Shown in pieces: positions 3,257 to 17,985 of a stretch of DNA of 64,000 nucleotides. The DNA is taken from positions 434,001-498,000 of the forward strand of contig NZ_NINW01000049.1 of the NCBI RefSeq assembly GCF_002188465.1, in the 5' to 3' direction. Source of the stretch: Pigmentiphaga sp. NML080357 (GTDB lineage: Bacteria; Pseudomonadota; Gammaproteobacteria; Burkholderiales; Burkholderiaceae_B). The first letter of the stretch is position 1, and every line of letters starts with the position of its first letter. The position numbers and the translations under genes are program-made. The notes under the pieces were generated by a model. The model saw nothing but the letters and a program-made list of their open reading frames with translations, did no database searches and was not told where the DNA came from.

Positions 3257-3301
3257 GACGGCCGCATCGCGTTGACCAGAGGGACGACAGAGGAGACTTC
3301 T

Positions 3302-4280: not shown

Positions 4281-4301
4281 GGCGGCGCCGGTTGCGCCGC
4301 C
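4281..4301 (+). terminator. Strong GC hairpin after the first Bug gene
   Basis: A perfect 8-bp stem (GGCGGCGC/GCGCCGCC) with a 5-base loop lies 8 bases after the Bug stop codon. There is no following T-run, so this may be an attenuator or mRNA 3' end rather than a classical intrinsic terminator. Confidence 0.4.
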
Positions 4302-4304
4302 ATA

Positions 4305-4359
4305 CATATCAGCTTTGCCTTCTCCGGTCCTGGGATGGGGAAGGGCGCGCTTCTATAGT
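4305..4359 (+). promoter_or_regulatory. Half-site of shared regulon motif plus -10-like element upstream of second Bug gene
   Basis: CATATCAGCTTTGCC at 4305-4319 matches the right half of a motif found in four other gaps of this region. A TATAGT element at 4354-4359 starts 39 bases after the TTG of the motif, the same distance as at two of the other sites. The left half (GYTATS) is not convincing here. Confidence 0.4.
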
Positions 4360-4410
4360 GGGTCGCAGCGCCATGGCCGCAGGCGGCCGGATGGCGGACA
4401 ACCATAAGCC

Positions 4411-5400
4411 ATGGAGACGACCTTGAAACGCGCATTCGCCATCCTGCTCGGAGGCCTGGCGGCCACGGCCCTGCTGCTGCCCGCCGCCCACGCCCAGTCC
4501 GACTATCCCAGCCGGCCGATCACCCTGGTCAATCCCTACGCGCCGGGCGGCCCCGCCGACACGCTGGCCCGGGAACTGGCATCCCGGCTGAAGGAGCGCC
4601 TGGGCCAGCCCGTGGTCGTCGAGAACAAGGCGGGCAGCGGAGCCATGGTCGGCACCGGCTACGTGGCGCGCGCCAAGCCCGATGGCTATACCCTGCTGAT
4701 GGGCACTTCGCCCGGCATGGTGGTCGGCCCGCTGATCGAGCGCGTGACCTACGACGGCCTGAAGGACTTCGAACTCGTCGGGCTGGTGGCCAACCAGCCC
4801 GTGGTCCTGGTGGCCAACGCCAAGCTCGGCATCAACACCATGCAGGACCTGCTCGACCGGGCGCGCAAGCAGCCGGGCAAGCTGAATTTCGCGTCGGCCG
4901 GCACCGGCGGCCCGACCCACCTGGCCGGGGAATTGCTGCGCCGCCGCGCCGGCATAGAGATCACCCACGTTCCCTACAAGGGCGCCGCCCCGGCCTTGCA
5001 GGACCTGATCGGTGGCCAGGTCGAGCTGGGCATGCTGAGCGCCTCGCCCGTGCTGCCCTTCGTCAAGGACGGCCGGCTCAAGGCCATCGCCTATACCGGC
5101 GCCAAGCGGTCCTCGCTGCTGCCCGACGTGCCGACCATGACAGAGGCCGGCATCAAGAACTGGAACGAGGTCTCCACCTGGTACGCCCTGGCCGCGCCAC
5201 GCGGCACGCCAGCGGCTATCATCGAGAAGCTGAGCGCGGCGCTGACGGCGATCAACGCCGAGCCGGAACACCAGCGCTTCCTGGCGCAGCAGGACGGCAG
5301 CATCGACAACATGACGCCTTCGGAAGTCACCGCCTTCGCGCAGAAGGACAAGACCGCGATGACGGAACTGCTGGGCGCCCTGGACATGCTGGCCAAATGA
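4411..5400 (+). CDS. Bug/TctC-family periplasmic solute-binding protein
   Basis: A 329-residue secreted binding protein; signal peptide cleaved after residue 28 (LLPAAHA). The ligand loop is intact (NPYAPGGPADTLARE), as is VPYKGAAPAL. Start choice is uncertain: the ATG at 4411 has no ribosome site, whereas the TTG at 4423 (giving MKRAFAIL...) has GGAG six bases upstream inside the first codons, so the true start may be 4423. It is separated from the previous Bug gene by 137 bases with a hairpin and its own promoter-like motif, so it probably belongs to a different unit, perhaps with the flavin reductase 49 bases downstream. Confidence 0.88.
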   Translation: METTLKRAFAILLGGLAATALLLPAAHAQSDYPSRPITLVNPYAPGGPADTLARELASRLKERLGQPVVVENKAGSGAMVGTGYVARAKPDGYTLLMGTSPGMVVGPLIERVTYDGLKDFELVGLVANQPVVLVANAKLGINTMQDLLDRARKQPGKLNFASAGTGGPTHLAGELLRRRAGIEITHVPYKGAAPALQDLIGGQVELGMLSASPVLPFVKDGRLKAIAYTGAKRSSLLPDVPTMTEAGIKNWNEVSTWYALAAPRGTPAAIIEKLSAALTAINAEPEHQRFLAQQDGSIDNMTPSEVTAFAQKDKTAMTELLGALDMLAK

Positions 5401-5408
5401 AACACCAC

Positions 5409-5435
5409 GGCGCGGCGCCTTCCTCGCGCCGCGCC
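5409..5435 (+). terminator. GC-rich hairpin between Bug and flavin reductase genes
   Basis: Ten paired bases (GGCGCGGCGC with GCGCCGCGCC) around a 7-base loop, starting 9 bases after the Bug stop codon and ending 14 bases before the next ATG. There is no T-run; a processing or attenuation element protecting the highly expressed binding-protein message is a reasonable guess. Confidence 0.4.
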
Positions 5436-5449
5436 CGGAAGCGGAGAAC

Positions 5450-6097
5450 ATGAAAGAATTCATTCGCGTCGACGTCCCCGGCCTCGATCCCGCGGACGCC
5501 TATCGACTGGTCGTGGGATGCGTGGTGCCGCGTCCCGTTGCCTGGATCACCACCCAGGATCGGAGCGGCCGGGTCAACGCCGCCCCCTTCAGTTCCTACA
5601 ATTACGTCGCCAGCCGGCCGCCCATGCTGGCCGTCAACATCTCGACGCTGGACGGAGAGCTCAAGGACACGGCCCGCAATATCGTGGAAACCGGCGAGTT
5701 CGTCGTCAACGTCTCGACCGAGGCCGACCTGGAGACCATGCATGCCAGCGCGGCCGAGTACCCGCCCGAGATCAGCGAGCCCGAAGCCCTGGGCATCGCG
5801 CTCCTTCCGAGCCACCATGTCCGGCCGCCCCGCATCGCTTCCACCCCTGTCCAGATGGAATGCCGCCTGGACCAGGCCATCCCCCTGGGCGAAGGCTATA
5901 ACACCCTCTACATCGGGCAGGTCGTCGCCTTCCACCTGTCTCCCGACATCTACGACGGCCGCCGCGTCAACAGCGCCGCCATGCGCCCCGTGGCCCGCCT
6001 GGGCGGCCCGTTCTACGCCGCGCTGGGCGAGATCTTCCACCGCCCCATGCTCCAACGCCAGCCCGGCGCGGAGCCTGATCCAGCCCCCAGACCTTAG
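5450..6097 (+). CDS. Flavin reductase-like FMN-binding split-barrel protein
   Basis: A 215-residue protein of the flavin-reductase-like (DIM6/NTAB) family. The core runs from about residue 15 to 170 and includes VVPRPVAWITTQD, NAAPFSSYNYVASRPPML and DTARNIVETGEFVVNV, the FMN-binding strands of the family. Such proteins reduce flavin with NAD(P)H for a two-component monooxygenase, or act alone on small substrates. No partner monooxygenase lies next to it; the nearest is the flavoprotein at 28 kb, which is of the self-sufficient type. A GGAGA ribosome site precedes the ATG. It ends 3 bases before the convergent fumarase-like beta gene. Its role in the local pathway is unknown. Confidence 0.85.
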   Translation: MKEFIRVDVPGLDPADAYRLVVGCVVPRPVAWITTQDRSGRVNAAPFSSYNYVASRPPMLAVNISTLDGELKDTARNIVETGEFVVNVSTEADLETMHASAAEYPPEISEPEALGIALLPSHHVRPPRIASTPVQMECRLDQAIPLGEGYNTLYIGQVVAFHLSPDIYDGRRVNSAAMRPVARLGGPFYAALGEIFHRPMLQRQPGAEPDPAPRP

Positions 6098-6100
6098 AGC

Positions 6101-6727
6101 TCAATCCCGGGCGGAACTCCGCCGCTCATCCAACCGGGCCAGTATCTCAGGCAACCGCTCCCGGGCCGTCTCCGCCAGGTCGCCGTAAAGGCTGTTGCCT
6201 TGCGCGTCGATCCCCACCGTGGCGGGGCCCAGCCCCTCCACCCGCAGCTTCACCAGCCGGTAGTGGTGCACCAGGTCGTTCCAGTGCACCGCCACCACTT
6301 CCCGTATCGCCTCGGATAGAAGCGTGCATCCACCCCCCAGGAACGACAGGTAGACGCACCCCGCCTCCCGCATCGCCTCGACGCTGCGAGCGTCCAGCCC
6401 GCCCTTGCCGCCCGCCACCCGCAACCCCAATCCGCGTATCAACCGCGGCATGAACCCGTTGAATCGCGTGCTCGTCGTCGGGTTCAGGTATAGCACCTCG
6501 AAATGGCCGCCGGCTTCCCGGCTGTAGCTGCCCAGGTGCAGCAGCGCGGCGTCCTTCAGGTCGATGGGGGGCGCCTCGCCACGGTCGAGCAGTTCCATCA
6601 GCCGTTCATGCGTCGTCATGCCGGCGCACAGCACGACCTCGCCATGCAGCCGGACCTGGTCGCCCACGCGTAGCGACCGGACCGCCTCTTCGCTCAGCGG
6701 CAACTCAAGTTCGTGGACGGTGCTCAC
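6101..6727 (-). CDS. Class I fumarase/tartrate dehydratase-like beta subunit (divergent)
   Basis: A 208-residue C-terminal-type hydratase subunit that pairs with the alpha gene 28 bases upstream. Compared with L-tartrate dehydratase TtdB, the overall layout is kept: LPLSEEAVRSLRVGDQVRLHG, then NPTTSTRF, then GGKGGLD and a final GNSLYGD. However, the Arg-Asp of the CRD-x2-H motif is replaced (CAGMTTH), GPTTS-x-RM is NPTTSTRF, and the GMPE segment is VHHY. The conserved threonine, arginine and lysine of the second and third motifs remain. The loss of the first substrate arginine suggests a substrate other than fumarate; mesaconate is attractive because class I fumarase homologues acting as mesaconases are known. 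Substrate is inference. Confidence 0.85.
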   Translation of the reverse strand: MSTVHELELPLSEEAVRSLRVGDQVRLHGEVVLCAGMTTHERLMELLDRGEAPPIDLKDAALLHLGSYSREAGGHFEVLYLNPTTSTRFNGFMPRLIRGLGLRVAGGKGGLDARSVEAMREAGCVYLSFLGGGCTLLSEAIREVVAVHWNDLVHHYRLVKLRVEGLGPATVGIDAQGNSLYGDLAETARERLPEILARLDERRSSARD

Positions 6728-6755
6728 GGTGTCGGGTCCTTGTCATGACGGCCAG

Positions 6756-7625
6756 TCATTCGATGATCTCCACGCGGCCCGAATCATGGATGCGGGCGCG
6801 GGTGCGGCGGTTGATCCAGCAGTTGAAACATACCGCCACCGGCGTGAAACCGTGGCCCGAGGCATAGTCCACGTGCACGGCCATCGCCGTGCTGTCGCCG
6901 CCGGTGCCCATGGGGCCGAAACCCGTCGCGTTGGCCGCTTCCTTGAGGCGATCCTCCATGGCGGCCAGCACGGGCTCGGGGTTGACCGTACCGATGGACC
7001 GAAGCGTGGCCTGTTTGGCCAGCTTGGCGGCATAGTCGAACGTGCCGCCTATGCCCACGCCGATCACCACCGGCGGACAATGCTGCGACCCGGCTTTGAG
7101 GATGACCTCCATCACGTAGCGCTCGATGGTCTCCAGGCTGGGAAAGGTGAAGATCTCCAGCGCGGCCCAGCGGCCCGAGCCCAGCGCCTTGGGCGAACAG
7201 GTGATGTCCACGTAGTCGGCGCCGTCGATCAGGTCGAAAGTGACGATGGGCATGTCCTTGCCCTTGTAGCCGCGCTCGTTGGTGAGGGGATTGGTCACGT
7301 GGGCGAGCAGCGGCGGCTGGATGGCGGCGACCAGATCGTCGAAACCGTCGGCGAAGGCGCGCTTGATGTCGCCCTCCAGCCGGGCGGCGGTGCCGATGCC
7401 GACGAAGTACACCGGGACGCCGGAGTCGGAGCAGACGAAGTGCTGGCGAGCCTCGGCGGCATCCGCGCTTTGCAGCATGATGCGCAGCGTGCCGCGCGCG
7501 ACCTCGTTGCGCTCGCCTTGCTCGGCCTCGCGCAGCGCCGCCTTGGTGTCCTCGGGTATCTTCTTCAGCGCGCGTTCGTAGAGCTGGGCGCTGACCGACC
7601 GCACGAGGTCGTAGCTGATGGCCAT
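6756..7625 (-). CDS. Class I fumarase/tartrate dehydratase-like alpha subunit (4Fe-4S)
   Basis: A 289-residue iron-sulfur subunit of a two-subunit class I hydro-lyase. The three cluster cysteines are visible: Cys65 (VCSDSG), Cys183 (HCPPVVIGVGIGG) and Cys269 (FNCWINRRTRAR). The segment LAKQATLRS and the GPMGTGG loop also match the family. It is transcribed ahead of the beta subunit with a 28-base gap, and diverges from a glutathione transferase across a gap holding the shared regulon motif. Together the subunits should hydrate or dehydrate a C4/C5 dicarboxylate in an oxygen-sensitive reaction. Length is normal for the two-subunit type. Confidence 0.9.
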   Translation of the reverse strand: MAISYDLVRSVSAQLYERALKKIPEDTKAALREAEQGERNEVARGTLRIMLQSADAAEARQHFVCSDSGVPVYFVGIGTAARLEGDIKRAFADGFDDLVAAIQPPLLAHVTNPLTNERGYKGKDMPIVTFDLIDGADYVDITCSPKALGSGRWAALEIFTFPSLETIERYVMEVILKAGSQHCPPVVIGVGIGGTFDYAAKLAKQATLRSIGTVNPEPVLAAMEDRLKEAANATGFGPMGTGGDSTAMAVHVDYASGHGFTPVAVCFNCWINRRTRARIHDSGRVEIIE

Positions 7626-7697
7626 CTGTCTCCCCTGTGGCGCGTCGGGGCGCGCGCGTTCCTGGTCTCCGGACTATAACGACGCGGCCGGGCCGCT

Positions 7698-7759
7698 GCT
7701 ATCACCCGGCCGGCACACCTGCTTTGCGGGCGTCTGTCCGGAACCGTGGTGGATATACT
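7698..7759. promoter_or_regulatory. Shared regulon motif in the fumarase/GST divergent gap
   Basis: GCTATC-N10-CACACCTGCTTTG at 7698-7726 aligns base for base with the sites at 12588 and 16056. A TATACT (-10-like) follows at 7754-7759, 36 bases before the glutathione transferase ATG. Its distance from the TTG is 30 bases rather than the 38-39 seen at the other sites. The left half could serve the minus-strand fumarase genes. Confidence 0.5.
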
Positions 7760-7794
7760 GGCCGGCACGTGCAATGTCTCGACGGAAGGAGCGC

Positions 7795-8427
7795 ATGAAG
7801 CTGCATTGGTCCACCCGTTCGCCCTACGTGCGCAAGGTCATGGCGGCGGCCATCGAGACCGGGCTGGACGCGTCCATCCAGACCCGGCTGTCCATCGTCT
7901 CGCTGTCGACCGTGAACGCCGACGTGGAGCGCGACAACCCGCTGGGCAAGATACCCACCCTGGTGACCGACGAGGGCGTGGCCCTGTACGACTCGCTGGT
8001 CATCTGCGAATACCTGGACCACCACAGCCGCAAGGGCCGGCTGTTCCCGCGTGAGTTCGACCAGCGCCTCGAAGCGCTGCGCTGGCATGCGCTGGGCAAC
8101 GGGCTGACCGACATCCTGATCCTGTGGAACAACGAGCGGGGGCGCGATCCGGCGCTCCAGTCGCCGGCGCACCTGTCCTCCTACCGTGCCAAGACGCTGG
8201 CTACGCTGGACGCGCTCGAAGCCACGGTGGACGAGCTGGACCGTCGCGAGTTCGACATCGGCCACCTGGGCGTGGCGGTCGGGGTCGGCCACGCGGATTT
8301 CCGGTTTGCCGACCTGCAGTGGCGCGCCACGCGGCCGCGCCTGTCGGCCTGGGCCGACAGCATGGCCGAGCGCGAATCCCTGCGCCGGACCGTGCAGTTC
8401 GACCCGCGCCTGCAAAAACCAGGTTAG
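7795..8427 (+). CDS. Glutathione S-transferase family protein (paralogue 1)
   Basis: A 210-residue cytosolic GST. The thioredoxin-fold N-domain (1-80) has the conserved DNPLGKIPTLV cis-proline loop and the YDSLVICEYLD segment that binds the gamma-glutamyl group. The all-helical C-domain follows, ending in a DFRFADLQW stretch. The ATG at 7795 is chosen because it has a GGAAGGAG ribosome site and gives the canonical MKLHWS N-terminus. It is closely related to the GST at 13968: 14 of the first 16 residues are identical. In catabolic clusters such proteins can be isomerases, lyases or dehalogenases as well as detoxifying enzymes; nothing in the sequence decides between these. Confidence 0.9.
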   Translation: MKLHWSTRSPYVRKVMAAAIETGLDASIQTRLSIVSLSTVNADVERDNPLGKIPTLVTDEGVALYDSLVICEYLDHHSRKGRLFPREFDQRLEALRWHALGNGLTDILILWNNERGRDPALQSPAHLSSYRAKTLATLDALEATVDELDRREFDIGHLGVAVGVGHADFRFADLQWRATRPRLSAWADSMAERESLRRTVQFDPRLQKPG

Positions 8428-8460
8428 TGCCGACAGAAGTCCTCATCCCCGCCGTCGAAG

Positions 8461-8991
8461 CTAGCGCGCGGCGAACTCGCTCGCCAGCGCGTTGACCAGT
8501 CCGCCGCTTTCCCAGATCCGCACCATCTGCGGCGAGAACGGCGGTGACGGGATGACGCGGCCGTCGGCCAGTTCGATCTCTCCGGTGGCCGGCGTGACGC
8601 CGATTACGTCGCCATCGGCCACGGCCTGCGTGATGCCTGGAACCAGCAGTATCGGCAGCCCCTGGCTGAGCGCCCGCCGGATGAAGCCCGATTCGCAGGA
8701 CTCCACCAGCACGGCCGCGATGCCCGAGGCCTTGATGGCGACGCTGACTTCCACGTGGTTGTGATGCGCGAAGTTCTTGCCGCCGACGACGATGTCGCCC
8801 GGCCGGACTTGCGACGGGAACTCGGGCCGCAGCTGGCGAAAGCACATCTGCCTGAGCGCGTCCAGGTCGAACGGCTTGCCGAAGCCGTCCCGCACCGCGG
8901 CGAATTCGATGATGCCATCGTCGCCGCAGACCTGGTCGCCGAATTTCCAGACCCGGCCCCGCAGGGTGCGCACGGAGGATGCTTCGTTCAT
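8461..8991 (-). CDS. Aconitase-superfamily small (swivel) subunit, LeuD-like, with altered active site
   Basis: A 176-residue protein with the fold signature of isopropylmalate dehydratase small subunits: GRVWKFGDQVCGDDGIIEF near the start and RPGDIVVGGKNFA near residue 88. The motif that normally reads NFGCGSSREHAP is replaced by NFAHHNHVEVSV, so the Ser-Ser-Arg that contacts substrate in aconitases is missing. The following segment (SGIAAVLVESCESGF) matches the family again. It lies 13 bases after the large-subunit gene and is last in a minus-strand run panE-like - Bug - large - small. It is unlikely to be the leucine-biosynthesis enzyme; reaction unknown. Confidence 0.82.
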   Translation of the reverse strand: MNEASSVRTLRGRVWKFGDQVCGDDGIIEFAAVRDGFGKPFDLDALRQMCFRQLRPEFPSQVRPGDIVVGGKNFAHHNHVEVSVAIKASGIAAVLVESCESGFIRRALSQGLPILLVPGITQAVADGDVIGVTPATGEIELADGRVIPSPPFSPQMVRIWESGGLVNALASEFAAR

Positions 8992-9004
8992 GTCGTGCCG
9001 CTCC

Positions 9005-10291
9005 TCAAAGCCTGCCCGCCAGCAGCGGGCGCGGATCCGCGATCTCTCCCGCCACGGCCGATGCCGCCACCGTATAAGGCGAGGCCAGGTGCACCGAGGC
9101 CTGGGTGCTGCCGTTGCGGCCCTGGTAGTTGAACTGGTGGGTGGTGATCGAGACGTCCTCGCCGCTCAGCACGCCCAGGTAGCCCCAACAGGTATTGCAA
9201 CCGGGCGACAGCACCGTGGCGCCAGCCTCGGCGAACACCTCGAGCAGCCCTTCGCGCGCGGCCGCGGCGTAGACGTTCTGGCTGCCGGGCGAGATGTACA
9301 TCGTGACGTGCGGGGCGATCCGGCGGCCGCGCAGCACGGCGGCCGCCGCCCGCATGTCGTCGAGCCGGTTGTTGGCGCAGGACCCGACGGCGGCCTGGTC
9401 GATGCGCCGGCCCGCCACCCGCGCGACGTCCACCGCGCCGCTTTGCGTGGGCGGCACGGTCACCATGGGCGTCAGCTGCGACAGGTCGTAGGTCAGCACC
9501 GCCGCGTAGTCCGCGTCCGGGTCGCTGCGCATCACCTGGTAGGGCCGGCCGTCCGCGCGTTCGTCGACGTAGTCCAGCGCGCGCGCGTCCACGTCCATGA
9601 TGGCGGTGTCCGAACCGGTATGGAAGGTCGAGGCCAGGATGGCCTGCCTGTCGTCCAGGCTCAGCTGCGCCAGCGCCGGCCCGCCGTATTCGACGCAGCA
9701 TTGCAGGAAGGTACCCTGTTCCTCGTGGTCGCGGATGATGGCCTGGACCAGGTCCCGCCCGGTCACGCCGAAGGGCAGGCTGCCCACCAGCTCGATGCGT
9801 ACCGTGCGCGGCACGCACACCCAGTGCCGGTCGTTCAGCAACGGCGCCAGCACGTCGGTGGACATGGGAATGTTCAGGGCGCCGACCGCGCCGATCGACG
9901 CGATGTTGCCTTCGTCCGAAAACACCAGGGACCCGGGCCGGGCAAAGCCGCGTTCGACCAGCACCAGGTGGCGCAGCCCGGTGTTGGGGCCGTAGAAGTT
10001 GTCGACGCCGAAGTCGCGCGTCAGTTGCTTGAGCATGTGGTGCGTCGCCGCGTGCGGCGAACCGGTGGCGGCCGCCGGCGTGTGGTCGATGACGATGATG
10101 GCTTTCTCGGGCCGGGCGAACGAGGTCGCGCCTATCTTCTCCAGGTTGCGCTTGTGCATGGGCCAGACCATCTCCTGGGTGACCACGTGGTCCGGCACGC
10201 AATTGACGTATTCGCCCGGCGCCACGGTCTCCCGGCCGGCGGCGCGGGCCAGGATCTTCTGGGCGATGGTCTGGCCGGTGGAGGCTGGCAT
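9005..10291 (-). CDS. Aconitase-superfamily large subunit, LeuC-like, with altered active site
   Basis: A 428-residue homologue of the isopropylmalate/homoaconitate dehydratase large subunit, somewhat shorter than E. coli-type LeuC. The cluster cysteines are kept: GSCANNR near residue 308 and GCNTC near 366. The early Asp-His (VIDHTPAA) is present. The GDSHT motif that supplies Asp-Ser-His to the active site reads SDEGN, so Ser and His are lost. A Bug binding protein precedes it by 21 bases and the small subunit follows by 13. Context suggests isomerisation or hydration of an imported polycarboxylate, such as citraconate, dimethylmaleate or an aromatic ring-cleavage product; this is inference. 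Confidence 0.85.
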   Translation of the reverse strand: MPASTGQTIAQKILARAAGRETVAPGEYVNCVPDHVVTQEMVWPMHKRNLEKIGATSFARPEKAIIVIDHTPAAATGSPHAATHHMLKQLTRDFGVDNFYGPNTGLRHLVLVERGFARPGSLVFSDEGNIASIGAVGALNIPMSTDVLAPLLNDRHWVCVPRTVRIELVGSLPFGVTGRDLVQAIIRDHEEQGTFLQCCVEYGGPALAQLSLDDRQAILASTFHTGSDTAIMDVDARALDYVDERADGRPYQVMRSDPDADYAAVLTYDLSQLTPMVTVPPTQSGAVDVARVAGRRIDQAAVGSCANNRLDDMRAAAAVLRGRRIAPHVTMYISPGSQNVYAAAAREGLLEVFAEAGATVLSPGCNTCWGYLGVLSGEDVSITTHQFNYQGRNGSTQASVHLASPYTVAASAVAGEIADPRPLLAGRL

Positions 10292-10312
10292 GGCAAGTTC
10301 CTATTGGACCGA

Positions 10313-11293
10313 TCAGTTGAGCGAAATGCCGGTTTCCTTGATGAACTGGCCCCAGAACTCGTAGCTGGCGAGCACGTTCTTGCGATACTGCTCGGGCGAG
10401 CTCGAGACGGCAAGCGAGCCCATCTGCTCGTAAGCCTTGCGCACTTCGGGGGTAGCCATGATCGTTGCCAGTTCCCGCTGGACGCGATCGACGATGGCGG
10501 CCGGCGTGCCGGGCGGCATGATGACGCCGTACTCGGTCGCCTGCACGACCTTGGGATAGCCCAGCTCGACCAGGGTGGGGGCGTCGGGCAGCAGCGGCGT
10601 GCGCTTTTCCGTGGTGACCGCCAGCACCCGCACGGTGCCGGCCTGGACGTGAGGCAGGATGGGCGTCAGGTCCGAGACCATGGACTCGACCTGTCCGCCC
10701 AGCAGATCGGTGATCGCAGGCGCCGCGCCGGCGTAGGGCACGTGCACGATGTCGACGCCGGCCGCGCGCTTGAAACGCTCTCCGGCCAGGTGGACCATGG
10801 TTCCGGTGCCGGCGCTGCCGTAGTTCATCTTGCCCGGGTGGCTCTTGGCCCGCTCCAGGAACTGCGCCATATTGGTGATGCCGGACTTGGCGTTGACGGC
10901 GATGACCGCCGGCACCTGCGCCAGGCTGGAGACGTAGGTGAAGTCCTGCTGCACCGAATAGGGAACTTTCATCAGGTGGGGCATCACCATCAGCGCGCCG
11001 CCCGCGCCCAGTCCCATCGTGTAGCCGTCCGGCGTCGCCTTGGCCACCGCCGCGGTGCCGATGGAGCCGCCGGCCCCGGCGCGGTTCTCGACGACGATGG
11101 GCTGCTTGAGGGCCTCGCCCAGCGGACCCGCGATGGTGCGCACGTAGGTGTCGGTCGGCCCGCCGGGCGGGAAGGGCACGATGAAGCGGATCGGCCGGGT
11201 GGGCCAGGAGGCGCTTTGCGCCAGGATCGGTGCCGAGAAAATTCCCAGGGTGCAGCTTGCGATCAGGCATGCCGCAAGGCGTCTGGCGCGCAT
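10313..11293 (-). CDS. Bug/TctC-family periplasmic solute-binding protein
   Basis: A 326-residue binding protein with a signal peptide cleaved near residue 26 (SAPILAQ). The ATG at 11293 is chosen for its GAGGAGA ribosome site and signal peptide; the reading frame stays open far upstream without coding character. The ligand loop is PFPPGGPTDTYVR; the second motif is VPYAGAAPAI, where Ala replaces the usual Lys. It heads the aconitase-like pair 21 bases downstream and presumably binds that enzyme's precursor. The 115-base gap to the panE-like gene contains a copy of the regulon motif, so it likely has its own promoter. Confidence 0.9.
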   Translation of the reverse strand: MRARRLAACLIASCTLGIFSAPILAQSASWPTRPIRFIVPFPPGGPTDTYVRTIAGPLGEALKQPIVVENRAGAGGSIGTAAVAKATPDGYTMGLGAGGALMVMPHLMKVPYSVQQDFTYVSSLAQVPAVIAVNAKSGITNMAQFLERAKSHPGKMNYGSAGTGTMVHLAGERFKRAAGVDIVHVPYAGAAPAITDLLGGQVESMVSDLTPILPHVQAGTVRVLAVTTEKRTPLLPDAPTLVELGYPKVVQATEYGVIMPPGTPAAIVDRVQRELATIMATPEVRKAYEQMGSLAVSSSPEQYRKNVLASYEFWGQFIKETGISLN

Positions 11294-11345
11294 GGCAGTC
11301 TCCTCTTCGGCGGGCGGTGCCGCCGCGTCTTGTCGATGTCCGGGC

Positions 11346-11399
11346 ATGGTATCGGGCGTGCCGCGGCGTCGATAGGCGCCGCGGTGCAAAGCTGCTATG
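11346..11399 (-). promoter_or_regulatory. Shared regulon motif upstream of Bug-aconitase-like genes
   Basis: On the minus strand CATAGCAGCTTTGCACC runs from 11399 to 11383. It is the best match to the right half of the motif seen at 4305, 7698, 12588 and 16056. A GATACCA (-10-like) sits about 38 bases beyond the TTG, the spacing seen at three of the other sites. On the left side only GTTA is found, two bases closer than expected. Confidence 0.45.
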
Positions 11400-11408
11400 G
11401 CGTGCGCG

Positions 11409-12440
11409 TTAACGGCCGGGCGAGGTGTAGAGGCCCAGCCGTTCGGCGCGCACGCGCGCCAGCGCGTAGACGGTCTCGAGCAGCGGCGCGGGCATGCCCA
11501 GCTCGCCGGCAATCTCCACGGCGGCGCCGAGGATGCTGTCCAGCTCTACCGCGCGGCCGGCCTCCACGTCCTGCAGCATCGACGTCTTGACGTGCCCCAG
11601 CTTGCGCGTGACCGCCAGGCGCTCGGGAGGCGAGATGGCCAGCGGCAGGCCCAGCGCTTCTCCCATCGCCAGGAGTTCCCGCATCATGGCCTGGAACAGG
11701 CGGTTGACGCGCTCGTCGTCGATCAAGAGGTCGGTGGCCGAGCCCGTCAGCAGGCTGACGGGATTGAAGCAGGCGTTGCCCAGCAGTTTTTCCCAGACCA
11801 CGCCGCGGATGTTGGGGCTGGCCGATGCGTCGAAGCCGGCGTCGGCAAGGCGCTGCGCCGCGGCTTGCGCCCTCGGGCTGGACCCGCCGCCCGGTTCGCC
11901 CACCACCAGCCGCGATCCGGATGCGTGGACCACCACGCCGGGTTCCGGGCACGAGCAGGACGGGAAAACGACGAAGCCCAGGATGCGATCGGCGGGAATG
12001 GCCCGCTCGAGCCGTCCCTCCGGATCCACCGCGCGCAGGCGATGTCCCGCCAGCGGGCCGCCCCCTGGCTGGAAGAACCACCATGGCACGCCGTTCAGGG
12101 CGGGCAGCACGACTGTGTCCGGCCCCAGCAACGGCGCGAGCCGGTCGGCCAGCGCCGGCAGCGAGGGCGATTTGACCGCGAGTATCACCAGGTCTTGCAC
12201 GCCCAGCCGCCCGGGATCGTCGCTGGCGCGCACCCGGGCCACCGATTCCACGCCGCCGCTGTCCAGGCGTATGCCCCGTTCGTTCACCGCGCGCAGCGTG
12301 GCGCCTCGCGCCAGCACGCTGACGTCGTTGCCCGCCAGGGCCAGCCGCGCCGCCAGGAATCCGCCGATGGCGCCCGCTCCGGCGATGCCTATCCTCAGGC
12401 GGCCGGGAGCCGGCATGGTCCGTTCTTGGGCGTTGTCCAT
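11409..12440 (-). CDS. Ketopantoate reductase-like (PanE/ApbA family) oxidoreductase
   Basis: A 343-residue NADPH-dependent 2-oxoacid reductase homologue. The dinucleotide loop is at about residues 17-26 (GIAGAGAIGG). The catalytic lysine lies in VVWEKLLGNACFNP near residue 222, and the substrate loop KTSMLQDVEAGRAVELDSI near 290 is intact. The ATG at 12440 has a GGAGA ribosome site; a second ATG at 12416 would shorten it by eight residues. It is first in the minus-strand run that continues to Bug and the aconitase-like pair, and diverges from CaiB. In such clusters PanE paralogues usually reduce a pathway-specific 2-oxoacid rather than serve pantothenate synthesis (inference). Confidence 0.88.
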   Translation of the reverse strand: MDNAQERTMPAPGRLRIGIAGAGAIGGFLAARLALAGNDVSVLARGATLRAVNERGIRLDSGGVESVARVRASDDPGRLGVQDLVILAVKSPSLPALADRLAPLLGPDTVVLPALNGVPWWFFQPGGGPLAGHRLRAVDPEGRLERAIPADRILGFVVFPSCSCPEPGVVVHASGSRLVVGEPGGGSSPRAQAAAQRLADAGFDASASPNIRGVVWEKLLGNACFNPVSLLTGSATDLLIDDERVNRLFQAMMRELLAMGEALGLPLAISPPERLAVTRKLGHVKTSMLQDVEAGRAVELDSILGAAVEIAGELGMPAPLLETVYALARVRAERLGLYTSPGR

Positions 12441-12540
12441 CGGTGATGTCTCCTGCGGATATGGGGGGCTGCGAGTCCGCCGGCGGCAGCCCGCTCTCGC
12501 TCCATTATTCCGGCCCCTGTCGCGCGCGTGGTGCACCCGG

Positions 12541-12658
12541 CAGGCATTTCTGCCTGTGCCCGGCGGATATAGCGGACCATGGACGGCGTTATGCGCATGG
12601 ACGCATTGCAGTCTTGCCGGCCCAGGCAGTAGGCAAGCGGGCGTCGGGCCCCTAGAGT
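12541..12658. promoter_or_regulatory. Shared regulon motif and promoter in the PanE-like/CaiB divergent gap
   Basis: The 286-base gap 12441-12726 contains GTTATG-N10-CATTGCAGTCTTGCC at 12588-12618, aligned with the 16056 site over both halves. TAGAGT at 12653-12658 starts 39 bases after the TTG. A separate small palindrome CAGGCA-N4-TGCCTG lies at 12541-12556. No small reading frame with a plausible ribosome site is seen in the gap. Confidence 0.5.
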
Positions 12659-12726
12659 CCGCACAGCGGCGACAGGCGCGGACGGATGAGGCTCGTCCGG
12701 CCGTCGGCGCGCACGCGGAGGAATGT

Positions 12727-13956
12727 ATGCATCGAACGACGGGCCCGCTGTCGCACGTCAAAGTCCTGGACCTGAGCCGCATCCTGGCGGCGCCGTGGGC
12801 CAGCCAGACCCTGGCCGATCTCGGCGCCGACGTCATCAAGGTGGAGCGTCCCGGCAGCGGCGACGACACCCGCGCCTGGGGGCCGCCTTTCCTGAAGGAC
12901 GGGCAGGGGCAGGATACCGAGGAGGCCGGCTACTACCTCGCGGTCAACCGCGGCAAGCGCTCGATCACGATCGGGCTCGACACGCCCGAGGGCCAGCGCA
13001 TCGTGCGGGAGCTGGCCATGCGCGCCGACATCCTGCTGGAGAACTACAAGGTCGGCACGCTGGCCCGCTACGGGCTCGACCAGGCATCGCTGCGGGCGCT
13101 CAACCCGAGGCTGATCTATTGCTCGGTCACCGGATTCGGCCAGACGGGGCCGCGCCGCGATCAGCCCGCCTACGACTTCCTGATACAGGCCATGGGCGGC
13201 CTGATGAGCGTGACCGGAGAACGCGACGACCGGCCCGGCGGCGGTCCGCAGAAGGTGGGCGTGCCCATCGTCGACCTGATGACCGGCATGTACACCGCCG
13301 TGGCGGTACTGGCTGCGCTGGCCCGCCGCAACGAAACGGGCGAAGGCGAGTACATCGACATCGGCATGTTCGACGTGCAGGTGGCGACCCTGGCCAACCA
13401 GGCCATGAACTACCTGGTGTCCGGCAAGCCGCCGCGGCGCAACGGCAACGCCCACCCCAACATCCAGCCGCAGGACGTCTATCGGTGCGCCGACGGCGAC
13501 ATCATCCTGGTCGTCGGCAACGACGGCCAGTTCCGCAAGCTGTGCGAAGCGCTGGGACATGCGGAGTGGGCCGCGGACGAGCGCTTCGCCACCAACGCGC
13601 AGCGCGTGCGGAACATCGACCGGCTGTCGGCGATGCTGCGCGAAGTGCTGGCGCGCCGCGACCGCGCCGGCCTGCTCGCGCTGCTGGATCGCGCCGGCGT
13701 GCCGTGCGGGCCGATCAACACGGTGGCGGAAGTGTTCGAGGAGCCGCAGACGATCGCGCGCGGGATGCTGCGCCATATCGACCATCCCAGCGGCGGCCAG
13801 GTGCCTCAGGTCGCCAGCCCCATGCGGTTCGCCGATGCCGCGTTGCCCGACCTCGCCGCCCCGCCCACGCTCGGCCAGCACAGCGCCGAGATCCTGGCCG
13901 AATTGGGCTACGACGCCGCCGGCATCGAGGCGCTGCGCGCCGCGGGCGCGATCTGA
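12727..13956 (+). CDS. CaiB/BaiF family (class III) CoA-transferase
   Basis: A 409-residue CoA-transferase. Landmarks are VKVLDLSRILAAPW (11-24), GADVIKVERPGSGDDTR (33-49), FGQTGPRRDQPAYDF, and the likely catalytic Asp183 in PIVDLMTGMY. The ATG at 12727 is preceded by GCGGAGGA and gives the standard N-terminus; an ATG four bases upstream is in another frame. A glutathione transferase gene follows after 11 bases, so the two are probably cotranscribed. In Alcaligenaceae such transferases activate diverse acids, including dicarboxylates and aromatic acids; the substrate cannot be read from sequence. The divergent promoter links it to the PanE-like/aconitase-like run. Confidence 0.92.
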   Translation: MHRTTGPLSHVKVLDLSRILAAPWASQTLADLGADVIKVERPGSGDDTRAWGPPFLKDGQGQDTEEAGYYLAVNRGKRSITIGLDTPEGQRIVRELAMRADILLENYKVGTLARYGLDQASLRALNPRLIYCSVTGFGQTGPRRDQPAYDFLIQAMGGLMSVTGERDDRPGGGPQKVGVPIVDLMTGMYTAVAVLAALARRNETGEGEYIDIGMFDVQVATLANQAMNYLVSGKPPRRNGNAHPNIQPQDVYRCADGDIILVVGNDGQFRKLCEALGHAEWAADERFATNAQRVRNIDRLSAMLREVLARRDRAGLLALLDRAGVPCGPINTVAEVFEEPQTIARGMLRHIDHPSGGQVPQVASPMRFADAALPDLAAPPTLGQHSAEILAELGYDAAGIEALRAAGAI

Positions 13957-13967
13957 GGGGGACGCGC

Positions 13968-14582
13968 ATGAAATTGCATTGGTCTCCCAAGTCGCCTTAC
14001 GTGCGCAAGGTCATGGTCTGCCTGCAGGAACTCGGGCTGGACGACCGCGTGGAGCGGGTGCGCTCGGTCGCGGCCATGCTCCGGCCCAATCCGCAGATCA
14101 TGCGGGACAATCCCCTGAGCAAGATCCCGACGCTGGTGCTGGACGACGGATCGGCGCTGTTCGATTCGGCCGTCATCTGCGAATACCTCGACGCGCTGGC
14201 CGGCGGCGGGCTGTTCCCGGCGCGGGGCGAGGAGAAGTGGCGGGCCCTGCGCTGGCATGCCTTCGCCGACGGCCTGCTGGACGTCCTCATCCTGTGGCGC
14301 AACGAGGCCGACCGCGGCGATGGCCAGCGGTCGGATGCGCTCATCGACGCGTTCCGGATCAAGACCGAGGCGGCGCTGCGCCAGCTGGAAAGCGAAGCCC
14401 GGGCGCTGGAGTCCGCGCCGTTCGGCATCGGTCACATCGGCCTCGGCTGCGCGCTGGGCTACATGGATTTCCGCTTTGCATTCCTGCAATGGCGCGAGCG
14501 CGCACCGCAACTGGCCGCGTGGCATGCCCGGATCGCAGCCCGGCCATCGTTCCGGAGCACCGAGCCCGTGCTGGAGGGATGA
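13968..14582 (+). CDS. Glutathione S-transferase family protein (paralogue 2)
   Basis: A 204-residue GST with N-terminal MKLHWSPKSPYVRKVM, nearly identical to the opening of the GST at 7795. The DNPLSKIPTLV loop and FDSAVICEYLD are the glutathione-site motifs; the C-domain ends with DFRFAFLQW. It begins 11 bases after the CaiB stop, with GGGGGA as ribosome site. The pairing of a GST with a CoA-transferase is unusual for plain detoxification and suggests a step such as glutathione-dependent isomerisation or ring opening in the pathway. That role is inference. Confidence 0.9.
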   Translation: MKLHWSPKSPYVRKVMVCLQELGLDDRVERVRSVAAMLRPNPQIMRDNPLSKIPTLVLDDGSALFDSAVICEYLDALAGGGLFPARGEEKWRALRWHAFADGLLDVLILWRNEADRGDGQRSDALIDAFRIKTEAALRQLESEARALESAPFGIGHIGLGCALGYMDFRFAFLQWRERAPQLAAWHARIAARPSFRSTEPVLEG

Positions 14583-14588
14583 GACGCT

Positions 14589-15425
14589 TCAGCCGTAGAG
14601 CCGGGTCGGGTTGTCGACCAGGATCCTGCGCACCAGCGACTCGCTGCCGGTCCATGCGCGGAAGGTGTCGAACAGCTTGCGCGTGTCGGGCAACGGATCG
14701 ATGCGGATGTGGGGCCAGTCGCTGCCCCAGACGAGCTGGTCGGGATTGGCTTCCAGCAGCTTGCGGTGAAAGGGGCGTCCGGGCTCCATGTCCGGCGTTT
14801 TCAGCAGGCTGCGATAGGCCGACAGCTTGACCCATGCCTTGCCGTCTGCCAGCAGGCGCAGCAATTGCTGGAAGCCGGGATCCTCCGTGCCGGCCCGTAC
14901 GTCGAAACTTCCCATGTGGTCGATCACGACCGGGCAGGGCAGGCTGGCCAGCAGCGGCGCGATGCCGGGCAGCGCCTCGCAGTCGGTCCAGAGCTCGACG
15001 TGCAGCCCGGCGTCGGCGACGGCGGAGGCCATCTGCCGCAGGTCGTCGATCGAGGCGCTGCCGGCGAAATTCCCCGCCGCGCCGCTGCGATGGCTGTAGC
15101 GCAGCGCGCGTACGCCGCGCCCGCGCAGCGTGGCCAGATCCAGGGGCGTGCCCGGTCGCGCGACGATGACGCCGCGCAAGTGGTCGTGCGTCGAGAGCGC
15201 GTGGAACAGCAGCGAGTAGTCTTCCCCGTACGCGCTGGGATGCACCAGCACCGCATGCGACAGCCCCTGGCCGGCCAGCATGGCCGAATGGTCCGCGACC
15301 AGCGCCTCGGGCGGCGTGTAGCTGCGTTCGGCCGCCAGCGGGAAGCGATCATAGGGGCCCAGCAGGTGGTTATGGCAGTCCCAGCCCGTGATCGGGGTGG
15401 GAGCCTGTCGCGCATCGCCGCTCAT
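14589..15425 (-). CDS. Amidohydrolase, 2-pyrone-4,6-dicarboxylate lactonase-like (LigI group)
   Basis: A 278-residue TIM-barrel hydrolase of the amidohydrolase_2 group. It has WDCHNHLLGP near residue 15, a VIDHMGSFD segment near 168 and WGSDWPHIRIDP near 228, whose Asp is the expected catalytic base. Length and the GSDWPH motif resemble 2-pyrone-4,6-dicarboxylate lactonase and related sugar/aromatic lactonases. Its ATG overlaps the stop of the upstream carboxymuconolactone-decarboxylase-like gene by 4 bases (ATGA), so the two are translationally coupled. Likely role: hydrolysis of a lactone formed during ring cleavage. The exact lactone is unknown. Confidence 0.85.
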   Translation of the reverse strand: MSGDARQAPTPITGWDCHNHLLGPYDRFPLAAERSYTPPEALVADHSAMLAGQGLSHAVLVHPSAYGEDYSLLFHALSTHDHLRGVIVARPGTPLDLATLRGRGVRALRYSHRSGAAGNFAGSASIDDLRQMASAVADAGLHVELWTDCEALPGIAPLLASLPCPVVIDHMGSFDVRAGTEDPGFQQLLRLLADGKAWVKLSAYRSLLKTPDMEPGRPFHRKLLEANPDQLVWGSDWPHIRIDPLPDTRKLFDTFRAWTGSESLVRRILVDNPTRLYG

Positions 15426-16009
15426 CGCGCCTGGCCCCATGCCGCCGCGTCGTCCTGGGGCAGCGGGAAGGCGGCGACCACGCCGGGCTCCAGCGGAATC
15501 TCGTGCGCGTTCAGGGTCATCGCCACCAGCGTGTAGTAGCCGACCAGCGCGGTCAGCTCCACCACCGTGCGCGCGCCGAAACGCGCCAGCGCGGCGGCGT
15601 AGGTCGCGTTGGACACCGACCGGTGGGCATTCAGCTCGCTGGCGTAGCGCACCACCAGCGCGTCGTCGGGCGCCAGTTCGTCGGGGATGCGGCGTTCGCA
15701 CAGGGCCTCGATGATCCAGGCTTCCACGCCTGCCTTCTCGGCCTCGGTCCGGTGGGCCGCCCATTCGAAGGGGGAATGGCAGGCCCGGGCCGTGACCAGG
15801 ATGGCCAGCTCCGACAGCCGGGGCGGCAGCGTGGTGTCGTAGCGCAGCAGTTCGCCCAGCGCCGACCAGCGCTCGGCCAGTTCGGGGTTGTACAGCGCGG
15901 CGCGCAGCGGCCCCCGCAGCCGGCCGCGCTTGCCGGCGACGACTTTATCGTGCACCCGGCGTTGTTCCGGGCTCATGGTTTCGGGCGTGGGCAGGTCGAT
16001 TCTCGGCAT
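15422..16009 (-). CDS. Carboxymuconolactone decarboxylase family protein
   Basis: A 195-residue protein of the CMD/AhpD-like all-helical family. The central stretch ELAILVTARACHSPFEWAAH (about residues 67-86) is the family core, with a single Cys and the EWAAH helix. The redox CxxC pair of AhpD is absent, so it is more like the non-redox decarboxylase-type branch. The ATG at 16009 has an AGAGGAG ribosome site. It is first in a two-gene unit with the overlapping amidohydrolase and diverges from an enoyl-CoA hydratase across the shared motif. A role in processing a lactone or muconate-like intermediate fits, but is inferred. Confidence 0.85.
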   Translation of the reverse strand: MPRIDLPTPETMSPEQRRVHDKVVAGKRGRLRGPLRAALYNPELAERWSALGELLRYDTTLPPRLSELAILVTARACHSPFEWAAHRTEAEKAGVEAWIIEALCERRIPDELAPDDALVVRYASELNAHRSVSNATYAAALARFGARTVVELTALVGYYTLVAMTLNAHEIPLEPGVVAAFPLPQDDAAAWGQAR

Positions 16010-16055
16010 GGGCTCCTCTCTTCTGGGCGCATTATCGGACGCCACGCGCGGCGGC

Positions 16056-16125
16056 GCTATGGCGCGGGGCGCATAGCAGCCTTGACCCGGCCCGCCTTTG
16101 CGCGGGCGCCGCGCGCGCCTAGACT
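16056..16125. promoter_or_regulatory. Best copy of the shared regulon motif, CMD/enoyl-CoA hydratase divergent gap
   Basis: A perfect inverted repeat GCTATG-N10-CATAGC (16056-16077) is followed directly by AGCCTTGACC. TTTGCG (16097-16102) and TAGACT (16120-16125) are spaced by 17 bases and form a plausible sigma-70 promoter for the plus-strand hydratase gene. The dyad lies upstream of the -35, where LysR-type activators usually bind. Confidence 0.55.
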
Positions 16126-16166: not shown

Positions 16167-16943
16167 ATGAACGAATACAAGCAACTGCAACTGCGGATAG
16201 ACGGCCACATCGCGCTGGTGACTCTGGACAGCCCGCCGGTCAACGCGCTGACCCGCGTCCTGAACGACGAACTGACCGCCGCGCTGGACTGGATCTCCGA
16301 GACGCCCGACGTCCGCGTGGTCGTGCTGACGGGCGCGGGGAAGGTGTTCTGCGCCGGCGCCGACCTGAAAGGCCGGGCCGATGTAATCAAGGGGCCCGGC
16401 GACCTGCCCGCGCACCTGCGCCGCACCCGCGAGTGCTTCCACGCCATCCGCGAATGCGCCAAGCCGGTGGTGGCGGCGATCAACGGACCGGCGCTGGGAT
16501 CCGGGCTGGCGATGGTCGCCTCGGCCGACGTGCTGATCGCTTCCGAGCGCGCCACCCTGGGCCTGCCCGAAGTGGACGTGGGCCTCTTGGGCGGATGCCG
16601 CCATGCGATGCGTTTGTTCCCCCATTCGCTGCTGCGGCGCATGATGTTGACGGGGCATCGGGTGCCGGCGGCCGAACTCTACCGGCTGGGCATCGTCGAG
16701 GCCTGCACGGCGCCGGAGGACCTGCTGCCCGCCGCCATGGAGATGGCGGGCGTCATCGCTTCCAAGAGCCCGGTCTCCACGCGCATGGGCAAGCACACGC
16801 TGAACACCATCGAGGACATGAGCCTGCGCGACGGCTATCGCTACGAGCAGGACATGACGGCGATCATCGCCACCACCGAGGATGCCGCCGAGGCGCAGGC
16901 CGCGTTCCGCGAAAAGCGCGCGCCGGTGTTCAAGGGCCGGTAG
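16167..16943 (+). CDS. Enoyl-CoA hydratase/isomerase (crotonase) family protein
   Basis: A 258-residue crotonase. The oxyanion-hole segments are VFCAGADLKGR (about 62-72) and INGPALGSG (about 107-115). The second catalytic acid is present in LGLPEVDVGLLGG. The first glutamate of classical hydratases, normally in GG-x-E-L, is replaced (GSGLAM), so isomerase, hydrolase or lyase chemistry is possible. The ATG at 16167 lacks a strong ribosome site but gives the normal N-terminus. The LysR gene follows after 79 bases. It would handle a CoA thioester made by the nearby CaiB transferase (inference). Confidence 0.88.
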   Translation: MNEYKQLQLRIDGHIALVTLDSPPVNALTRVLNDELTAALDWISETPDVRVVVLTGAGKVFCAGADLKGRADVIKGPGDLPAHLRRTRECFHAIRECAKPVVAAINGPALGSGLAMVASADVLIASERATLGLPEVDVGLLGGCRHAMRLFPHSLLRRMMLTGHRVPAAELYRLGIVEACTAPEDLLPAAMEMAGVIASKSPVSTRMGKHTLNTIEDMSLRDGYRYEQDMTAIIATTEDAAEAQAAFREKRAPVFKGR

Positions 16944-17022: not shown

Positions 17023-17985
17023 ATGCAGCATCCGAAAGCCACCAGTATCCAGCTGGACGTGACCGCCAGCTTGCAGAAATGGCGGGCATTCCTCGCCATC
17101 GGCGAACTGGGCAGCCTTACCCGCGCCGCCCTGTTCCTGAACAGCAACCAGTCGTTATTGAGCCGGCAACTGAACGCGCTCGAACGCGAGTGCGGCACGC
17201 GGCTGTTCGTGCGCACCGGCCGGGGGGTGGAGCTGTCGGACGTGGGCCAGCGCATCTTCCCGCAGGTGCGGGCCTTGCTGGCCGATGCCGAGCAGCTCGA
17301 GAACGAGATCCGGGAGCAGGCGCGCGACGCCAGCGGGCGCGTCACGCTGGGCACGCTGCCGTCCATCGGCCACCATCTCGTGGGGCAGCTGTTCACCGAG
17401 GTCCGGGCGCGCTACCCCGGCGTCAGCCTCAAGGTACTGGAGGGTTCCAGCGGCCAGGTCGAGGAATGGCTGGCCGATGCCCGGGTCGACATCGGCATCC
17501 TGTACCGGTACGGCGGCACACTGCCCGAGCACGAGCAGTGCCTGGCCACTGTCGACAGTTACCTGATCGGGCCCGCGGGCGACCGCCTCACTGCGCAGGA
17601 AGAGGTGCCGTTCCGGAGCCTGCACGAGCTTCCCTTCATCCTGCCCAGCGCGCCCAACGGGCTGCGCACCGCGCTCGATTCCATGGCGCGGCAGGAGCAC
17701 ATCACGCTGGCGCCCGTGATCGAAGCCGATTCGCTGCCGCTGCAGGCCTCGCTGGTTGCGCGCGAGCGGCTCTATACCGTGCTGCCGCTGCACGCCGTAT
17801 GGACCGAGGTCGCCAACGGCGACGTGCAGGCCGCCCGCATCGTGGATCCGCCGTTCCAGCGCACCGTGGCGCTGGTCTTCGCCAAGACCAAGGGCCCCGG
17901 CAAGGCGGTGTCCGCCATCGCCGCGCTGATCGGCGAGATCGTCGAGAGAATGGCGCGCGACGGAATGTGGCGGACGAGCCGCTGA
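17023..17985 (+). CDS. LysR-family transcriptional regulator (Nac-like)
   Basis: A 320-residue regulator. The winged helix spans roughly residues 17-78 (LQKWRAFLAIGELGSLTRAA, then LSRQLNALERECGTRLFVRTGRG). The effector domain begins at about 100 (RVTLGTLPSIGHHLVGQLF) and contains VLEGSSGQVEEWL and ILYRYGG, which resemble the Nac-type subgroup. It lies 79 bases after the enoyl-CoA hydratase and is the only LysR gene within the first 40 kb. Since five gaps between 4.3 and 16.1 kb share a dyad of LysR-site form, it is the leading candidate for their regulator (inference). The tetrapyrrole-methylase gene follows after 50 bases. Confidence 0.9.
   Translation: MQHPKATSIQLDVTASLQKWRAFLAIGELGSLTRAALFLNSNQSLLSRQLNALERECGTRLFVRTGRGVELSDVGQRIFPQVRALLADAEQLENEIREQARDASGRVTLGTLPSIGHHLVGQLFTEVRARYPGVSLKVLEGSSGQVEEWLADARVDIGILYRYGGTLPEHEQCLATVDSYLIGPAGDRLTAQEEVPFRSLHELPFILPSAPNGLRTALDSMARQEHITLAPVIEADSLPLQASLVARERLYTVLPLHAVWTEVANGDVQAARIVDPPFQRTVALVFAKTKGPGKAVSAIAALIGEIVERMARDGMWRTSR

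Follow-up and report, generated by a model that had tools for sequence, protein, structure and literature searches.

A recurrent promoter element in Pigmentiphaga is the probable operator of a LysR-type regulator of carboxylate catabolism genes

We analyzed a 64,000-nucleotide stretch of Pigmentiphaga sp. NML080357 (the window; 5.73-Mb genome G000, genus g1), in which one promoter element recurs in five gaps of a catabolic region. It is very likely that this element is the operator of the LysR-type regulator encoded at 17023..17985 on the plus strand, and that this regulator activates dispersed operons for the uptake and coenzyme A (CoA)-dependent breakdown of a single carboxylate or a small set of related ones. 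This reading builds on the observed element, on how rigidly it is spaced and how well it is conserved, on its unlinked targets and on its occurrence together with the LysR. The protein, whose assignment is based on Pfam and on its orthologs, has an N-terminal HTH_1 domain (PF00126, 6.6e-17) and a C-terminal LysR_substrate domain (PF03466, 1.1e-35). The original prediction had proposed a regulon with this LysR as its activator. At the level of sequence, both proposals are supported, the regulon by conservation, spacing and unlinked conserved promoters, and the regulator by linkage, co-occurrence and unlinked targets.

Direct reading of the window located all five predicted motif sequences. The gap between the divergent ech and cmd genes contains a perfect dyad, GCTATG-N10-CATAGC, followed by AGCCTTG (16056..16084, plus strand), and the ech −10 hexamer TAGACT (16120..16125, plus) lies at a spacer of 35. 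In the caiB2/panE gap, GTTATG-N10-CATTGCAGTCTTG (12588..12616, plus) is followed at a spacer of 36 by the caiB2 hexamer TAGAGT (12653..12658, plus). The bug2 site (4289..4317, plus) combines the strong half CATATCAGCTTTG at 4305-4317 with a weak left arm (TTGCGC), and its hexamer TATAGT (4354..4359, plus) also has a spacer of 36. The bug3 site (11387..11415, minus) has the strong half CATAGCAGCTTTG at 11399-11387 and the hexamer TACCAT (11346..11351, minus) at a spacer of 35, which is 36 in five of six relatives. The fifth site, GCTATC-N10-CACACCTGCTTTG (7698..7726, plus), lies between gst1 and fumA, and the gst1 hexamer TATACT (7754..7759, plus) is at a spacer of 27 (26-28 in relatives). A −10-like hexamer had been predicted at four of the five sites; those of bug2, caiB2 and ech were retained, whereas GATACC before bug3 had to be replaced by TACCAT. 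With this correction, bug2, bug3, caiB2 and ech all have spacers of 35-36. The predicted dyad likewise held in its right half-site, whereas bug2 and bug3 have a weak left arm, and in other genera this arm shrinks to [AT]TG.

The sites are conserved within the genus. We compared 11 Pigmentiphaga genomes including that of the window, searching for the LysR at E ≤ 1e-80. Six of the other genomes (P. kullae K24 and Pigmentiphaga sp.) encode it at 96-98% identity, two at 63%, and two gave no match at this threshold. The cluster is present in all six close relatives, and the ech/cmd, caiB2/panE, bug3 and gst1/fumA sites are kept in each of them (6/6); the relocated gst1/fumA copy in G006 has one base changed. 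The bug2 site is kept in 5/5 relatives with bug2 in the cluster stretch and in a relocated copy in L113. The ech, caiB2, bug3 and bug2 promoters have TAnnnT at a spacer of 35-36 in 7/7 Pigmentiphaga copies each. Gap alignments showed the motif and the −10 to be nearly invariant and the flanks to vary more, most clearly in comparison with G009 (L031), although parts of the flanks are conserved as well. G006 has its cluster divided between two places ~1 Mb apart (L030, L113), and sites are retained at both, in keeping with action in trans. Since orthologous loci keep the sites, in Pigmentiphaga and in other genera, the argument that a chance motif would not be conserved beside conserved coding sequences gives no refutation.

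Promoter-like copies were also found away from the locus. A search of 268 family genomes for the exact half-site CATADCAGCYTTG gave 137 matches, 39 of them in Pigmentiphaga, and 37 of these 39 fall in the seven genomes with a close LysR, the window's included. Twenty lie in the cluster and 17 elsewhere, the relocated bug2 of G006 being counted among the latter. TAnnnT at a spacer of 35-36 follows 16 of the 17 off-locus half-sites, compared with 1 of 53 background half-sites (Fisher 1e-13), among which one more has TAnnnT at a spacer of 37. The background is the 77 of the 137 half-sites made up of 75 outside Pigmentiphaga and two in G005, which has no LysR; 53 of the 77 were examined. A further 23 half-sites outside Pigmentiphaga were assigned to the LysR operon, 21 being on the LysR contig and those of the fragmented G087 and G093 on another contig. 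The off-locus sites precede bug41 (G000, G002, G003, G009), a caiB-caiB-acad2 operon (the four relatives G002, G003, G006, G009), a second Bug gene (G000, G002, G003, G004, G006, G008, G009; 81-99% alike) and the relocated bug2 of G006. A hydrolase gene stands between the site and the second Bug gene in G000; none was detected there in the other six stretches. A search for acad2 at E ≤ 1e-90 gave no match in G000, G004 or G008. The g4 operon with bug-lysR at its end encodes homologs (52-63%) of the proteins of the unlinked caiB-caiB-acad2 operon. In P. litoralis and G001, a bug41 ortholog (70%) with the half-site CATATCTGCTTTG follows immediately after lysR-cmd-amh. Thus, the predicted regulon extends past the locus in which it was first noticed.

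The original prediction had also proposed that genome-wide frequency would separate the motif from chance, and this was borne out for exact matches. The full pattern at up to three mismatches gave three matches in the window, all exact, a number reached by 0/100 shuffles, and the full 29-bp pattern has three exact matches in the genome, all at this locus, the pattern having been fitted to these three source sites. The half-site CATAKCAGCYTTG has four exact genome matches, three at this locus and one before an unlinked Bug gene, and CATADCAGCYTTG has five exact copies in the window genome; exact half-sites elsewhere in the genome are mostly conserved promoters. At three mismatches the frequency is that of background, as detailed below, and the 29-bp pattern at this tolerance proved useless as a genome-wide search tool.

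The location of these half-sites raises the question of a generic Bug-promoter element, shared by many Bug genes and recognized by different regulators nearby. The one exact CATAKCAGCYTTG outside the locus stands before a Bug gene, a further half-site heads the hydrolase-Bug pair, and the window genome holds at least 150 Bug genes (150 of 302 Bug/TctC candidates were scored and all 150 matched). This explanation is nevertheless very improbable, and we rejected the element as a general Bug promoter on the comparison of at least 150 Bug genes with only five exact CATADCAGCYTTG half-sites, a count that covers exact sites. Moreover, the element is found upstream of ech, caiB, cmd and caiB-acad2 operons as well, and in genus g4, 23/26 LysR-negative genomes are without the half-site.

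Comparison with other genera provides the stronger evidence because the motif was not fitted to those species. In g4 and other genera the locus reads caiB2-ech-caiB'-acad2-bug-lysR, with amh and cmd on the opposite strand; gene families were checked on L139, where the LysR is the sole regulator. Upstream of the orthologous caiB2-ech operon, 17/19 regions have CATAACAGC(T/C)(T/A)TG with TAGACT or TAAACT 34-36 bp further on, and these half-sites differ from CATAGCAGCTTTG by one or two mismatches. The other two regions, from two g10 genomes, have a diverged CATATCTGGTTTA with TAGACT. The 19 regions derive from 24 neighbourhoods, the five without a caiB2 match in the stretch having been left out. 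We then scanned 35 of 40 loci around LysR orthologs from named genomes, five close relatives of the window being left out; the genera and species covered include Variovorax, Polaromonas, Rubrivivax, Aquincola, Pseudorhodoferax, Pseudoxanthomonas, Luteimonas, Verticiella (G021) and P. litoralis (G007). At up to two mismatches and a −10 at a spacer of 34-36, 40 matches were obtained in 28 of the 35 loci, matches not being restricted to gaps; some of the seven loci without a match are short contigs. The sites precede cmd-amh, ech, caiB2, bug and flavin reductase genes. Pseudoxanthomonas belongs to the Lysobacterales (Gammaproteobacteria), so the element also occurs in Gammaproteobacteria.

These data bear on chance or inherited similarity of GC-rich gaps. 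Loose patterns do fall to background at three mismatches, and parts of the flanks are conserved within the genus. However, 300 permuted motifs applied to the same 35 loci gave a mean of 0.04 and a maximum of 3 matches, compared with 40 for the real motif, and spacers of 34, 35 and 36 account for 7, 28 and 5 matches whereas all other spacers from 15 to 59 together give 2. The permuted controls, the spacer spectrum and the cross-genus conservation refute this explanation, and the probability left to it is negligible.

Two side observations were made in this material. In the Lysobacterales loci L278, L281 and L284, CATAGCTGGATTG with TAGACT stands upstream of lysR on the minus strand, directed away from lysR, so that there may be a further divergent target. 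Four large plasmid records, from Variovorax and Comamonas endophytica, also encode LysR relatives (70-74%).

The presence of the element follows that of the LysR. With a threshold of E ≤ 1e-85 and eight candidates scored per genome, the LysR was found in 43 of the 268 family genomes. In g4 the exact half-site is present in 17/17 genomes with the LysR and in 3/26 without it (Fisher 3e-9), and 0/3 of these LysR-negative half-sites are promoter-like. Among all 43 LysR genomes, 33 have an exact half-site, or 30 after removal of G107, G111 and G021, whose half-sites are unlinked and not promoter-like. Variant sites occur in G001, G007, three g54 genomes, two g10 genomes and G021. A 3-mismatch site common to G034 and G230 lies on the other strand from lysR, and no site was seen in the LysR neighbourhood of G105. 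The half-site also occurs in 58 of the 225 genomes that lack the LysR, and these form part of the examined background.

Several results weigh against the assignment of the element to LysR 17023. At three mismatches the full pattern is no more frequent in the genome than its reversed control (33 versus 44 matches), and the half-site occurs in the window about as often as expected (35 versus 28.9). The gst1 promoter departs from the spacing rule by 8-9, the gap before lysR itself has no half-site, and an exact half-site of G002 (L188) does not resemble a promoter. The off-locus matches fall into four groups and the genomes are related, so that the counts are not independent; LysR-negative calls rest on the eight scored candidates per genome. 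More distant LysR orthologs (50-54%; g25, g52) have no convincing site, two g52 neighbourhoods being outside the comparison. No site was found near the ortholog in L153, although its helix (residues 43-55) is identical to that of LysR 17023, and L037 and L154 have only a 3-mismatch CAAGTCAGCTATG with TATAGT in common. In G001 and G007, 1-mismatch sites before caiB2 and bug41 lack TAnnnT at the spacing (they were found by aligning gaps, not by the TAnnnT-filtered scan), and no site was seen before cmd in the gap alignment. We also tried a co-variation of regulator and operator, in which the helix SVLSRRIN would go with CATAAC and SLLSRQLN with CATAGC. It does not hold: CATAGC and CATATC sites occur together with SVLSRRIN in G001, and CATAAC sites with SLLSRQ in L255 and L256. 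Together with LysR-like neighbours of the unlinked sites, this failure slightly lowers our confidence.

Those neighbours are relevant to the alternative that another regulator, or LysR paralogs of the same specificity, act on the element while LysR 17023 serves the local promoters only. A scan for LysR-like genes gave weak matches 6 kb from the site in L108 (28%), 8 kb in L114 (30%) and, over 123 residues, ~4 kb in L187, L189, L190 and L191 (28%); in L113 one lies ~1.3 kb downstream of gst1 (29%). Such matches are not group-wide, none being reported in L110-L112 (versus L114), L186, L192 or L194. The element follows LysR 17023 orthologs, and the unlinked target genes are cluster members in other lineages. 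With LysR-like genes as the regulators scanned for, we consider this alternative improbable and retain LysR 17023 as the candidate regulator of both local and unlinked sites.

As a separate observation, CAAGTCAGCTATG with a −10 at a spacer of 35-36 recurs in L037 and L154 (two g25 genomes) and in L032 (8416; Verticiella), and is perhaps an older form of the operator.

In 57 non-redundant sites, information is found in [AT]TG and, after N10, in CATAGCAG(C/G)Y(T/A/C)TGC. The 13-mer was selected for in collecting the sites, whereas the left arm, the G before and the C after the 13-mer were not; the unselected left-arm T of the T-N12-A dyad is present in 39/57 sites and the G in 42/57. The dyad centre is ~53 bp from the −10 hexamer, which would put it at about −65 as estimated from the −10; −65 is the classical LysR recognition position. 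Upstream of the −10 at this distance, the dyad [AT]TG-N10-CAT agrees with a LysR-type activator. In the aligned LysRs (L032; L255-L272 orthologs; L280), the DNA-binding domain is 80-90% identical and the effector domain 64-76%, and a better conserved DNA-binding domain is usual for the LysR family. From these data we infer binding, activation, an inducer and a pathway as follows. A LysR dimer would bind the dyad [AT]TG-N10-CATAGCAGCYTTG (T-N12-A type), centred ~65 bp before the start site, and a second LysR contact is expected toward −35. With inducer, it would recruit RNA polymerase to promoters having the −10 35-36 bp past the strong half-site, and dispersed operons for uptake through Bug receptors and for the CoA-dependent degradation of one carboxylate or a few of its relatives would thereby be switched on.

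The divergent cmd and fumA promoters would have the same dyad near −42 and could be either activated or repressed. Conserved −10-like hexamers on the minus strand, GATAAT for cmd (16031..16036) and TATAGT for fumA (7673..7678), lie ~30 bp from the dyad centre; they were read by eye and their assignment is inferred. A dyad centred at ~−42 would overlap the −35, and the same regulator might then repress some promoters. We regard repression as rather unlikely: outside the genus, many loci provide cmd with a separate activator-type site (spacer 34-36), which makes joint induction likelier. When the gst1/fumA site was read by eye in reverse orientation, no −10 was seen at the expected distance.

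The proposal that about 14 enzymes serve one pathway for one imported carboxylate remains plausible. A core recurs in other genera, namely CaiB-type CoA-transferases, ech, a double acyl-CoA dehydrogenase, a Bug receptor, the amidohydrolase and the CMD protein, whereas fum, acn, panE, maoC and hpcH are variable. This core suggests Bug uptake, CoA activation by CaiB, oxidation, hydration and an amidohydrolase step. The PDB search placed the amidohydrolase nearest to 2-pyrone-4,6-dicarboxylate hydrolases, and caiB2 resembles dicarboxylate and formyl-CoA transferases (NCBIfam, PDB). None of ten proteins compared with NCBIfam reached an equivalog cutoff that names a substrate, so the pathway is left unnamed; the PDB search, made with caiB2, amh and the LysR, named no substrate. 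We tentatively suggest, as a possibility short of an even chance, that one LysR controls a so far undescribed regulon, conserved in lineages as far apart as Burkholderiales and Lysobacterales, whose genes encode a new CoA-dependent pathway degrading a cyclic or lactone-forming dicarboxylate. This pathway would employ CaiB enzymes, the double acyl-CoA dehydrogenase, the enoyl-CoA hydratase and a ring opener like pyrone-dicarboxylate hydrolases, with the operator tagging orphan Bug receptors.

The sites appear to mark a real LysR regulon of known kind, this one apparently undescribed. No description of the motif or cluster was found in the open-access literature searched, the motif itself being looked for as one exact 13-mer and subscription papers being outside the scope. 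GcdR of Pseudomonas putida is a LysR activator of gcdH-gcoT for glutarate; it is similar in that a LysR activator accompanies a CoA-transferase and an acyl-CoA dehydrogenase serving a dicarboxylate (PMC6667623). Its site is AGTGA-N7-TCACT (T-N11-A) at the local gcdH promoter (PMC6667623), whereas the Pigmentiphaga site [AT]TG-N10-CATAGCAGCYTTG stands at many promoters, some of them unlinked; the two systems were compared by operator and gene content. The consensus of the 57 sites does not match the GcdR operator, and caiB2 scored 484.6 bits against succinate-glutarate CoA-transferase NF052585, under the cutoff of 750. T-n12-A spacing is reported for PcaQ and CutR, with the CutR site at ~−60 (PMC12609908). 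CutR has a different dyad (TTAAG-n6-CTTAA) and other targets, and no activation site is reported for it. The itaconate CoA module is similar in that the window maoC and hpcH are nearest to RipB and RipC (NCBIfam names RipB/Ich and RipC/Ccl), but the scores are far under the equivalog cutoffs (146 versus 340 and 173 versus 375 bits) and both genes lie outside the recurring core.

Bug receptors are strongly amplified in these bacteria, with at least 150 genes in the window genome, and are described as mostly unassigned in a statement on Bordetella (PMC11452294). A conserved operator linking even unlinked Bug genes to one enzyme set would allow Bug genes to be grouped by substrate; if the reading is true, the operator tag assigns scattered orphan receptors to one substrate. 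The link between operator and enzymes makes the pathway testable, and the case illustrates how a catabolic gene set can be divided among many promoters and yet show no sign of having lost its joint control.

Pfam bears out the gene calls of the region: MaoC, HpcH, CaiB, Bug1, Bug2, flavin reductase, fumarase-like B/A, glutathione S-transferase 1 (GST1), the aconitase-like large subunit, Bug3, PanE-like, CaiB2, GST2, amidohydrolase, CMD, enoyl-CoA hydratase and LysR. The core genes are caiB2 (CaiB-type CoA-transferase; 12727..13956, plus; PF02515), amh (amidohydrolase; 14589..15422, minus; PF04909, relative of 2-pyrone-4,6-dicarboxylate hydrolases, PDB 2ffi and 4d8l), cmd (15422..16009, minus; PF02627) and ech (16167..16943, plus; PF00378, NF005073 above cutoff). 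Downstream of caiB2 lies gst2 (13968..14582, plus; PF13409). On the plus strand are also bug2, encoding a TctC receptor, with the flavin reductase gene (4411..6097) and gst1 (7795..8427), all assigned by Pfam. The minus strand carries fumB-fumA, a two-subunit, class I fumarase-like hydro-lyase (6101..7625; Pfam, NCBIfam), an aconitase/isopropylmalate-dehydratase-like large subunit (9005..10291; Pfam, NCBIfam), the Bug/TctC receptor gene bug3 (10313..11293; PF03401) and a PanE/ApbA-like reductase (11409..12440; Pfam). The LeuD/DmdB-like small subunit of the aconitase-like pair (8461..8991, minus) has no Pfam match and was detected by NCBIfam only, at 103.1 bits just under the cutoff of 108.95. 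Between hpcH and bug2, caiB1 and bug1 (window 2120-4273) are missing in G002, G004 and G006 and present in G003 and G008, a pattern of gain or loss within the cluster. Behind lysR, the reading frame at 18036-18806 resembles a precorrin methyltransferase gene, judging from its sequence.

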